This document shows, in pieces, positions 59,613 through 64,000 of a DNA stretch of 64,000 bases. The notes below the pieces were generated by a model that was not told the DNA's origin, searched no databases, and was given only the letters and a program-made list of their open reading frames with translations. Source of the DNA: Labilibaculum manganireducens. GTDB taxonomy: Bacteria > Bacteroidota > Bacteroidia > Bacteroidales > Marinifilaceae. Where the stretch lies: NCBI RefSeq assembly GCF_002843385.1, contig NZ_MVDE01000004.1, forward strand, positions 124,001 through 188,000, written 5' to 3'. The position numbers and the translations under genes are program-made. Each line of letters opens with the position of its first letter. Position 1 is the stretch's first letter.

Positions 59613-61562
59613 ATGGGGAAAGAAATACGATATATCACCAACTTTTTTATTCTAATCATTGTTTGCATTGCCTTATTAATAGGTTGCTCTTTGGCTTGGG
59701 ATATTTATAAAGAAAATCAGACCTCATATGAATTAGCCAAAGGAGAAGCATTTGGAAGCTGTAATAAAGATCTGGTATTTCGCAAATGGGCATCTATGCA
59801 CGGTGGTATTTATGTTCCCATTTCAAACTCCATTCAACCCACCCCCTATTTAAATTTCTTAGATGAACAAAATGTAACAACTACTACAGGTAAAGAGTTA
59901 ACCTTGATAAATCCTTCTTATATGACTCGTTTGGTTTTTAAGCTTGGCGAGCAGCAATACGGTCAAAAAGGACATATCACCAGTTTAGATCCAATTAATT
60001 CTGAAAATAAAGCTGACGAATGGGAAACGAAAGCTTTAAAATTATTCGAAAAAGGAAAAACAGAATACTCCAGCATTGAAAATATAAATAACAAAGAGTA
60101 TTTGCGCTTAATGATACCAATGGTCGTTGAAAACAGTTGTTTAAAATGTCATTACAATCAAGGATACAAACTTGGTGATATCAGAGGAGGAATAAGCGTT
60201 TCGATACCCATGAAAAAATACAATTCTGTCGTGCAAACCAAAATTGAAAGCATGATATTCACTCATCTAATTTCATATATCGTTGTCCTTTTTTTTAGTG
60301 CTTTAGGTTATCGAAGAATACTAATTGAGATGAAAAAACGCAATATCGCTCAGAAAAAAACAATAAAAAATGAAGCACTCCTCCTTCAACAGAATAAAGA
60401 ATTGATTTTAACCAAAAGGAAAGCCGTTGAAAGTGATCGACTTAAAACAATCTTTCTTCAAAACATAAATCATGAAATTAGAACCCCAATGAATGCAATT
60501 ATGGGTTTCTCTTCATTACTTACCGAGCAATTTAACGACAAAGAGTGTATTGAGAAATACTCTAAAATTATTATGCAGCGATGCAATGATCTTCTTTCTA
60601 TTGTTAATGACATTATGGACATTTCGCAAATAGAAACAGAACAGATACATTTCAATATTGAAGAATGCAATTTGAACACAACCCTCGTTGAAATCCATGC
60701 ATTGTTTAGGGAAGAACAAGTGCGTCAGAAAAAACAAAATATCAATCTAATACTAACAAGTTCAACAACTAAAAACAAAACTTTTATCACCGATAAGGAA
60801 AAATTAAAGCAAATAGCAGCAAACCTAATTAGCAACGCCTTAAAATTTACCGATCATGGTGAAATTAATATAATCCTTAAAATAGATGATCACAAGAATA
60901 TAATTCTTCAAGTTTCGGATACCGGAATTGGTATTCCAACTTCGGAATTTAAAAATATTTTTGAACGCTTTACGCAGGTAGAACAAGATGAAAACCGTGT
61001 TTTTAGTGGTACTGGACTGGGTTTATCAATCGTTAAAGGACTAACAAACTCCTTGTCTGGTACTATCCATCTCGATTCTGAACTTGGTAAAGGAAGTACT
61101 TTTACGATTACATTACCCCAAAATTCAAATCACAACAACACGAATTCAAACTCTGGTTCTAAACAAACAAAACAAGTTTATAATTTTAGCGGGAAAAACA
61201 TTTTAATTGTAGAAGACGACGAACCAAATGCTCAATATTTGAAAGAAATTTTTAACAAGACATCTGCTAAAATTATACATACCGGCAAAGGAGAAGATGC
61301 TGTACAAATTGCATTATCGCACTGCATTGATGTGGTTTTAATGGATATTCGTCTGCCGGATATTAGTGGTTATCAAGCTACCCGACAGATTAGAAAAAAC
61401 GATAAAGATGTTCTAATTATTGCACAAACAGCTTATACTTCAAGCCAAGACAAAAAACAAGCTTTTGATTCGGGATGCAACGAATATCTCTGCAAACCAA
61501 TTAAGGCGAAAAAATTACTTGAATTAGTCAACAAGCATCTTAGCGAAGCGGTTGTAATATAA
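59613..61562 (+). CDS. Tll0287-like heme-sensor hybrid histidine kinase
   Basis: A 649-residue hybrid kinase. An N-terminal helix, a periplasmic Tll0287-like (DUF3365) domain containing the c-type heme motif Cys176-x2-Cys179-His180, and a second helix near 218-232 come first. HisKA follows with His287 (INHEIRTPMNAIMGF), then HATPase (NLISNALKFTDHGE, GTGLGLSIV) and a C-terminal receiver (VVLMDIRLPD). No output or Hpt domain, so it needs partners. A covalent periplasmic heme implies sensing of redox state, oxygen or nitric oxide. Its receiver resembles the stand-alone one at 22293. Confidence 0.9.
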   Translation: MGKEIRYITNFFILIIVCIALLIGCSLAWDIYKENQTSYELAKGEAFGSCNKDLVFRKWASMHGGIYVPISNSIQPTPYLNFLDEQNVTTTTGKELTLINPSYMTRLVFKLGEQQYGQKGHITSLDPINSENKADEWETKALKLFEKGKTEYSSIENINNKEYLRLMIPMVVENSCLKCHYNQGYKLGDIRGGISVSIPMKKYNSVVQTKIESMIFTHLISYIVVLFFSALGYRRILIEMKKRNIAQKKTIKNEALLLQQNKELILTKRKAVESDRLKTIFLQNINHEIRTPMNAIMGFSSLLTEQFNDKECIEKYSKIIMQRCNDLLSIVNDIMDISQIETEQIHFNIEECNLNTTLVEIHALFREEQVRQKKQNINLILTSSTTKNKTFITDKEKLKQIAANLISNALKFTDHGEINIILKIDDHKNIILQVSDTGIGIPTSEFKNIFERFTQVEQDENRVFSGTGLGLSIVKGLTNSLSGTIHLDSELGKGSTFTITLPQNSNHNNTNSNSGSKQTKQVYNFSGKNILIVEDDEPNAQYLKEIFNKTSAKIIHTGKGEDAVQIALSHCIDVVLMDIRLPDISGYQATRQIRKNDKDVLIIAQTAYTSSQDKKQAFDSGCNEYLCKPIKAKKLLELVNKHLSEAVVI

Positions 61563-62162: not shown

Positions 62163-63761
62163 ATGGACGAAAACCTATTTTTCCTATTAAAAGAACTACT
62201 TACAAAAAATAGCATAAAAGTTAATAATGAAGAATTAAAGCTTCAATTATTTGGTCATCCTTCGTATCCAAGTTTACATTCTTTGACCGGAGTTTTGGAT
62301 CATTTTAACATCCCAAATCTTGCAATAGAAATTCCAAAAACAGAGGAAAACATTGCTCTTTTACCCGATTACTTCATAGCTCATATCGAAAACAACAGAG
62401 GTGATAATTTTGCATTAATCAGCAAGAAAGCGGATGCTATTCAAATTACACGTGAGGGAAAAAAATCGGAGCTTGTTTCTATTGACAGCTTTATTGATTT
62501 ATGGACCGGAATTGTCTTAGTTATCGAAACGGATGAAAATATAAAAACAGATATCTCTTCTATTTTCTCAAAAGGATTACTTGTAAGTATTCCAGTCGTA
62601 CTAATAATTTGTTTTTTATTCTTGAGTCAAAACCCATTTGAATCATTTCATTTTGTTTTTTCGATGATTGGACTAATGATATGTATCTTTATTCTTCAAC
62701 ACGAAATAGGAACTTCTTCTCAGGTTTTGAATAAAATTTGTACTGGTGTTAGTGATAAAGTTAGTTGCGATGATGTTATGCAATCGAAAGGATCCAATCT
62801 TTTTGGCTTTGTTAAATTAAGTGATCTTGGTATTATTTATTTTCTAACCTCAGTATTATCTTCCTTACTTTTTGTGATAAGTAAAAACAATTTCACACCA
62901 CTCTTCCTTGCTAGTCTTATGGCTCTGCCATTTACAATCTATTCCATCTACTATCAGTTCCAAATTGTAAAAAAATGGTGTCTCCTTTGTCTTGGTGTTA
63001 TTTTGGTTTTATGGATACAATCAGCTTTGGCAATTGCAAATATCAATTCAATCTCTGAGATAATATCAGAACCAAATTCTTACTTACTCTTTGCATTTGC
63101 GGCATACCTTACCACAGCTCTTTGGTTATTCATTGCTCCCAAAATAAGGCTAAAACCAGAATATTTTAAATTAAAAGTACAATTCAATAAATTCAAAAGA
63201 AACTTCGAAATATTCAACAATCTGCTTTCCAGATCGCAAGCAATAAACACCACAATTACAAACTGCAATGAAATAGTATTTGGCGCTAAAAATTCTGAAT
63301 TGGAAATCGTTATCATCACAAACCCCTTATGTGGCTTTTGCAAAAATGCTCACAAATTAATTCACATAGTATTAGATCAAGAAACCGAAGTAAAAATCAT
63401 TGTTCGTTTCAATGTATCTCAAAATACAAAAGCCATTGATAATAAAATTGCAGCAAAACTAGTTGAGATCTGCCATTTAAACGGGGAAGAGATATGTCTA
63501 ACAGCAATGAATGAAGCCTATTCCAGCAGAGATGCTGCCACTTGGCTAAATAAATGGGGAGAATCAGAAAATGAATACTATTCTCAAATTTTAATGGAAG
63601 AAAAGAATTGGTGCACAAACAACAATATTCCCTTTACACCTGAAATACTTCTTAATGGCAAATCCTATCCAAAAGAGTATGATTTTGAAGAATTGCAATA
63701 TTTTCTTGAAGATATTAACGAGTTCGAAGTTTCGACGCAAACAGAACTCATAACAGACTAA
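62163..63761 (+). CDS. C39-like/VKOR/thioredoxin fusion protein
   Basis: A 532-residue membrane oxidoreductase. Residues 1-120 resemble a C39 peptidase-like domain (HPSYPSLHSLTGVLDHFNI; YFIAHIENNRGDNFALI) but lack the catalytic Cys. Residues 135-325 form a vitamin K epoxide reductase domain, with five helices, loop cysteines Cys193 and Cys202, and the active-site Cys273-x2-Cys276. Residues 375-510 are a thioredoxin-like domain with Cys390-Gly-Phe-Cys393. Together they would form disulfides in exported substrates using a quinone as electron sink. The next gene encodes a double-glycine leader peptide with two cysteines, the likely client. Confidence 0.88.
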   Translation: MDENLFFLLKELLTKNSIKVNNEELKLQLFGHPSYPSLHSLTGVLDHFNIPNLAIEIPKTEENIALLPDYFIAHIENNRGDNFALISKKADAIQITREGKKSELVSIDSFIDLWTGIVLVIETDENIKTDISSIFSKGLLVSIPVVLIICFLFLSQNPFESFHFVFSMIGLMICIFILQHEIGTSSQVLNKICTGVSDKVSCDDVMQSKGSNLFGFVKLSDLGIIYFLTSVLSSLLFVISKNNFTPLFLASLMALPFTIYSIYYQFQIVKKWCLLCLGVILVLWIQSALAIANINSISEIISEPNSYLLFAFAAYLTTALWLFIAPKIRLKPEYFKLKVQFNKFKRNFEIFNNLLSRSQAINTTITNCNEIVFGAKNSELEIVIITNPLCGFCKNAHKLIHIVLDQETEVKIIVRFNVSQNTKAIDNKIAAKLVEICHLNGEEICLTAMNEAYSSRDAATWLNKWGESENEYYSQILMEEKNWCTNNNIPFTPEILLNGKSYPKEYDFEELQYFLEDINEFEVSTQTELITD

Positions 63762-63833
63762 AAATAATTATAAAACTGAAGCCTTGACGGTTTTAAAATG
63801 TTCAAGATACACACATTATTAAATTTTAATATT

Positions 63834-64000
63834 ATGAAAGATTTACAAAAATTAAACGGTGCTAAAATTCTAAGTAATAAAGAACAACAAAAAATAACAG
63901 GTGGTTGGAAGGGCTTGCCACTAGATCCATGCGGAGGTGGAGGTGAGGTTCTAACAAGATATACAACTCAAGAAGAATGTAATGGCCATGGAATTTGGTC
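63834..64000 (+). CDS. Double-glycine leader peptide precursor (partial)
   Basis: A frame starting at ATG 63834 and running off the window end. Residues 1-24 are a classical double-glycine leader (LNGAKILSNKEQQKITGG as residues 7-24, following the LSxxExxxIxGG rule). The core begins WKGLPLDPCGGGGEV and contains Cys33 and Cys49 in the part seen. Such peptides are cut after Gly-Gly by C39 peptidase-containing ABC exporters and secreted. The upstream VKOR fusion suggests a Cys33-Cys49 disulfide. Function (bacteriocin, signal or other) is unknown, and the C-terminus is beyond the window. Confidence 0.75.
   Translation, partial: MKDLQKLNGAKILSNKEQQKITGGWKGLPLDPCGGGGEVLTRYTTQEECNGHGIW

Follow-up and report, generated by a model that had tools for sequence, protein, structure and literature searches.

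The closest described systems are the bacteroidetocins, for which Coyne et al. 2019 (PMC6671954) reports loci of four genes, encoding a protein with five helices, a single peptide, a thiol oxidoreductase and the C39 transporter, and attenuation of the toxin when the gene of either the redox enzyme or the membrane protein is deleted. They share with the system described here their occurrence in Bacteroidota, a Gly-Gly leader, a core with four cysteines, a gene for a redox enzyme and a transporter of the C39 type, and differ from it in leader length (15 aa versus 24 aa here), in having one peptide per locus versus an array of five served by one fusion enzyme with a dead C39 domain, and in the placement of the transporter, which is adjacent in bacteroidetocin loci, absent at the present array on contig C4 and present at a second locus on contig C49. 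The present system would work in a similar manner, but with an enzyme of other architecture that serves arrays and seemingly acts on the other side of the membrane.

On the enzyme side, the fusion resembles the Synechococcus-type VKOR-thioredoxin fusions in its VKOR core with both cysteine pairs and its C-terminal thioredoxin domain, and differs from them in an added N-terminal C39-like domain, an extra helix and positive charges on the opposite side. The fold of the added domain is common to the C39 peptidase domains of PCATs and to the C39-like domain of HlyB, which is not known to have a peptidase role; in those proteins it is joined to an ABC transporter, whereas here it is joined to a redox enzyme. 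A 2017 study by Hibender and colleagues reportedly deals with an archaeal VKOR of cytoplasmic activity and, by its title, offers a precedent for a VKOR acting in two compartments; we know of no leader-docking domain or peptide substrates for the archaeal protein. A literature search that covers few subscription journals found no paper linking VKOR to RiPPs, to Gly-Gly leaders or to C39 domains. What is likely new here is that the extra helix brings the C39-like domain, the cysteines of the VKOR core and the thioredoxin domain to the same side of the membrane, which the charges indicate to be the cytoplasmic one.

The window analyzed is a stretch of 64,000 nt (C4:124001-188000) of the 5.3-Mb Labilibaculum manganireducens genome (97 contigs). 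The fusion gene lies at its right edge, and the precursor array beside it continues past that edge. The features are as follows, in window positions unless contig C4 is named:

62163..63761, + strand: C39-like / VKOR / thioredoxin fusion, 532 aa (open reading frame, Pfam, model, family hydropathy peaks)
62163..62528, + strand: C39-like domain (aa 1-122) without catalytic activity, a probable leader dock (model, PDB fold matches, cysteine count)
62562..62630, + strand: extra membrane helix A, about aa 134-156, before the VKOR core (hydropathy peak at aa 147, model)
62634..63149, + strand: VKOR core, about aa 158-329, with C193, C202, C273 and C276 (Pfam VKOR)
63267..63713, + strand: thioredoxin domain, aa 369-517, with CGFC (Pfam Thioredoxin_4)
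63770..63827, + strand: 58-nt repeated element before precursor 1
63834..64000, on to C4:188028, + strand: precursor 1, 64 aa, 24-aa Gly-Gly leader and four-cysteine core (reading past the window)
C4:188096-188254: precursor 2, 52 aa, Gly-Gly leader, four core cysteines
C4:188354-188512: precursor 3, 52 aa, Gly-Gly leader, four core cysteines
C4:188706-188861: precursor 4, 51 aa, Gly-Gly leader, four core cysteines
C4:189011-189181: precursor 5, 56 aa, Gly-Gly leader, four core cysteines
C4:189224-189262: terminator-like hairpin of 17 pairs after precursor 5

The reading frame and Pfam matches confirm the three-domain fusion of the original prediction, with its CLLC (aa 273-276) and CGFC (aa 390-393) motifs. 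All three domains score above the Pfam cut-offs, two of them by a narrow margin: Peptidase_C39 at aa 12-125 (22.9 bits, cut-off 22), VKOR at aa 164-290 (63.6 bits, cut-off 27.5) and Thioredoxin_4 at aa 369-517 (24.7 bits, cut-off 23.2). With its Pfam match and two cysteine pairs the protein belongs to the VKOR family; the VKOR matches from a PDB sequence search were all weak, with E values no better than 0.14. The whole-fusion model has a mean pLDDT of 51 and was used for helix positions only; this low-confidence model and the family hydropathy peaks predict six membrane helices (aa 134-154, 158-181, 219-239, 245-269, 274-294 and 305-329 in the model). The closest named relatives of the gene are found in Labilibaculum euxinus (96 percent), Labilibaculum sp. 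K2S (93 percent) and two Ancylomarina (68 and 63 percent).

For family-wide comparison 46 loci were taken in, 44 of them with an anchor (L101 and L102 being without). Forty-four fusion frames were reduced to 36 by dropping the split L084 and L089 (two pieces each), L097, and L099, L101 and L102, in which the full architecture is absent; five plasmid fusions brought the set to 41, a split Parabacteroides fusion (L106) being excluded. Six redox cysteines are invariant in all 41, namely C193, C202, C273 and C276 of the VKOR core and C390 and C393 of the thioredoxin domain.

A hybrid histidine kinase gene (window 59613-61562) lies on the same strand 600 nt upstream of the fusion; its product has a receiver and a sensor domain that is Tll0287-like and bears a heme-type motif, CLKCH. 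A kinase 56 percent identical to it occurs about 0.76 kb upstream of the fusion at one related locus (L096), and no match to it was found in the nine other relative loci searched.

The N-terminal domain of the fusion has the C39 fold. Modelled alone it reaches a pLDDT of 86, and its best PDB match is the peptidase domain of substrate-bound PCAT1 (Z 14.8, rmsd 2.9 over 123); it also matches 6mpz, a Gly-Gly protease with bound leader (Z 14.3), and 3zua, the C39-like domain of HlyB (Z 12.4). The catalytic residues are largely lost, Cys being present in 0/36, His in 1/36 and Asp in 9/36 fusions, versus 26/26 for each of the three in the neighboring C39 transporters, and a clade motif, HPx[YWF][PS], is found in 32/36. 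Since the fold is kept and the catalytic cysteine is missing, the domain should bind rather than cut. A leader-binding fold that is devoid of cutting residues and forms part of an oxidase would most plausibly be a leader dock. An active leader peptidase was rejected, the catalytic cysteine being absent in 36/36.

In a co-variation test of 32 loci (three near-duplicates excluded), leader similarity follows both the C39-like and the thioredoxin domain. The partial rank correlation of leader and C39-like domain, given the thioredoxin domain, is 0.172 (11/999 permutations as high), and that of leader and thioredoxin domain, given the C39-like domain, is 0.226 (0/999 permutations as high). Also, one locus (L099, at 8994) encodes a 405-aa VKOR-thioredoxin protein with the extra helix and without a C39-like domain, 209 nt downstream of a C39 transporter, indicating that the C39 part is not always needed.

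The fusion stop (ending at 63761) and the ATG of precursor 1 (63834) are separated by 72 nt, and a Gly-Gly leader and two core cysteines are visible inside the window, all as originally described. Precursor 1 ends 28 nt beyond the window and has four core cysteines in all, for which the expected mass shift of the core is -4 Da instead of the -2 Da that had been foreseen. Continuation of its frame into a large unrelated protein was rejected, given the stop after 64 aa. The further precursors anticipated to the right are indeed there, four in number, and all five peptides begin with a 24-aa leader that follows the pattern MKDLQKLxGAKILSKKEQQxVKGG, and carry four core cysteines (5/5). The absence of candidates from window positions 1-63700 under the same Gly-Gly filter, the presence of the leader in four more downstream peptides and the recurrence of the arrangement in related genomes argue that the pairing of fusion and precursor is not due to chance, and the array beside the fusion lends support to the earlier idea of a dedicated system for cysteine-rich Gly-Gly peptides.

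The 58-nt element occurs in four copies, ahead of precursors 1, 3, 4 and 5 and not ahead of precursor 2, and no further site in the genome matches its 17-nt core with fewer than two mismatches. A promoter scan of the array gave no signal (19 found versus 20.3 expected). Terminators in the array numbered 1 versus 2.2 expected, so that the hairpin stands out by its length of 17 pairs and its location rather than by statistics. A DEAD-box helicase gene and then a B12-type radical SAM gene lie 3' of this hairpin, and both are also found downstream in L. euxinus. About 9 kb downstream of the array, a radical SAM protein (L006 15133-16826) follows a small cysteine-containing peptide, in what is possibly another peptide-modification locus.

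Leaders are far better conserved than cores. Among the 30 precursors of the window clade, mean identity is 69 percent for leaders and 34 percent for cores, the leader is more similar than the core in 420/435 pairs, and a 5-5-4 spacing is present in 17/28 four-cysteine cores. Precursors 3 and 5 show a cassette-like pattern, their 60 upstream nt being identical, their leaders 99 percent and their cores 48 percent identical. The peptides fall below the curated cut-offs of Pfam Bacteroid_pep (PF14406; best 20.1 bits versus 25, leader part only) and of the Dickkopf_N cysteine-rich domain (PF04706; best 18.1 bits versus 25). The likeliest guess, made by analogy with the bacteroidetocins, is that they would be toxins directed against other Bacteroidota.

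Several related peptides occur elsewhere. A lone sixth precursor (L178 1456-1650, contig C3:240786-240935) has a leader of the same family and six core cysteines, and lies far from any fusion. Small Gly-Gly peptides with a different leader, MKNFEIVSQEELQNIKGG, and near-identical short cores are found at the ends of contigs C36 and C38 (L180 75-349 and L179 1498-1599). A peptide near precursor 3 in sequence (L093 11044-11199) has one Cys replaced by Phe, leaving three cysteines, and is perhaps decaying.

The export ABC transporter predicted just right of the window is not found on contig C4, where a whole-genome C39 search returned only the fusion itself. In the entire genome this search identified four places, two fusions and two full-length transporters, the latter lying on C38 and C49 in frames of 747 and 743 aa, respectively. 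The C49 locus has the order second fusion, four-cysteine Gly-Gly peptide, TlpA-like protein, DUF6734 protein, C39 ABC transporter and HlyD protein. No transporter was found beside the fusion in the six closest relatives, each of which has two or three strong C39 matches away from it; one such match, in G398, sits in a frame of only 160 aa. Since this genome and its six closest relatives have C39 proteins away from the fusion locus, the array peptides are likely exported in trans.

In ordinary VKORs the first helix runs directly into the cysteine loop. In the fusions helix A precedes the VKOR core, with a window-19 hydropathy of at least 1.6 in 38/41 and a weak one in 3/41, and as it brings the helices to six, hydropathy and model put the C39-like domain, the VKOR cysteine pairs and the thioredoxin on one membrane side. 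Density of K+R was compared in equal windows around the helix ends, on the active-site side and on the other side. It is 0.121 versus 0.033 in the fusions, with the active-site side higher in 40/41, the exception being a Hymenobacter plasmid protein (0.075 versus 0.079). The cyanobacterial VKOR-thioredoxin proteins are reversed in 6/6 (0.049 on the active-site side versus 0.133). Over the four shared VKOR helices only, the active-site side is the richer in 39/41 fusions, in 0/6 cyanobacterial proteins and in 1/27 phylum VKORs without a C39 part (0.031 versus 0.169), these 27 being the best-scoring loci returned and not a random draw (30 loci minus two fusions, L193 and L210, and minus one with unaligned cysteines). 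The sole exception among these controls, L203 (G452:C21), is a stand-alone VKOR; it has an additional helix at its N-terminus, and its charges likewise look reversed. A profile of the fusion N-domain is found in 41/41 fusions and in none of 28 phylum controls with E below 1. By the positive-inside rule, a K+R-rich active-site side suggests that the active sites of the fusions most likely lie on the cytoplasmic side, the reverse of ordinary VKORs and an orientation that the original prediction had not anticipated.

The same dedicated disulfide enzyme could instead face the periplasm, with the C39-like domain serving as a periplasmic chaperone or holder of exported peptides and oxidation following export. 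Disulfides are usually formed outside the cytoplasm, which is normally reducing. Also, clostridial VKORs complement E. coli periplasmic mutants, according to PMC12453122. The charges, however, are the reverse of those in 26/27 phylum VKORs without a C39 part and in 6/6 cyanobacterial proteins. Moreover, if the leader is already cut off by the transporter on the cytoplasmic side, none would reach a periplasmic leader-binding domain, and type I export bypasses the periplasm. A periplasm-facing enzyme is considered unlikely.

In a quite improbable alternative, the fusion would act as a reductase or isomerase, keeping or reshuffling the cysteines of the precursor instead of bonding them; TlpA-like, reductase-type proteins occur in some loci and the redox chemistry may be two-sided, but the VKOR core retains all four cysteines in 41/41, which is the layout of an oxidase.

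Fusion relatives (E 1e-10 or better) occur in 24/395 genomes of the class and 12/56 of the family. A same-strand Gly-Gly candidate lies within 8 kb in 39/44 fusion loci, one with at least two core cysteines in 38/44, and a candidate lies within 200 nt of the fusion in 26/44; in 6/44 the filter found no Gly-Gly peptide with at least two core cysteines. A C39 transporter is present within the fetched stretch in 30/44 loci, several of these stretches stopping at contig ends. Among annotated plasmids, those of Aureibacter, Emticicia, Spirosoma and Hymenobacter carry the same set together with the transporter and an HlyD adaptor, and a Parabacteroides plasmid carries fusion and transporter. A Parabacteroides distasonis plasmid record (L105) is a richer version of the system, in which the fusion adjoins a cysteine-rich peptide whose leader ends in AG, together with a LanC-like gene, a C39 transporter and glycosyl-transferases.

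The cores are predominantly even in cysteine number. Among 98 distinct cores, 94 have at least two cysteines and 87 of these are even (including 41 with four, 31 with six and 11 with eight); by clusters, 73/79 are even by majority (p 5e-16). Control peptides near C39 transporters without a fusion have fewer cysteines and are even in 11/15, so parity is not unique to the fusion family. That the fusion is a general oxidase for many envelope proteins with an incidental peptide neighborhood, as might be needed given that no match to DsbB was found in the genome searched, is very improbable in view of its patchy presence (24/395 class and 12/56 family genomes) and of the cysteine-rich Gly-Gly peptides adjoining it in most loci.

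We therefore favor, with moderate confidence, a dedicated disulfide synthase for the adjacent cysteine-rich Gly-Gly peptides, combining leader docking, cytoplasm-side oxidation and separate C39 export. The dead C39-like domain would dock the Gly-Gly leader of the precursor, and the CGFC pair of the tethered thioredoxin domain would take electrons from the core thiols, to be passed to C193/C202, then to C273/C276 and presumably to a membrane quinone. With all enzyme parts on one side, most likely the cytoplasmic one, the precursor would be oxidized while the leader is still attached. A separate C39 ABC transporter with its HlyD adaptor, encoded elsewhere in the genome, would then cut after the Gly-Gly and export the folded peptide, an order that fits type I export, given that this route bypasses the periplasm. 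Evenly poised is the fuller proposal of an inside-out VKOR that has gained a helix and recruits Gly-Gly precursors through its dead peptidase domain, so that disulfides are installed under direction of the enzyme, ahead of cleavage and type I export.

If such an inside-out synthase holds true, disulfide formation in Bacteroidota would be a true RiPP modification that depends on the leader and serves arrays of hypervariable peptides. Peptides exported by type I systems skip the periplasm, the usual site of disulfide enzymes, and a leader-docking oxidase facing the cytoplasm would explain how they acquire their bonds. Such an oxidase would add disulfide bonding to the known leader-directed modifications, and would be a portable tool for small disulfide-rich peptides with variable cores. 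The fusions would also allow the reversal of membrane orientation across an entire enzyme family to be tested directly.
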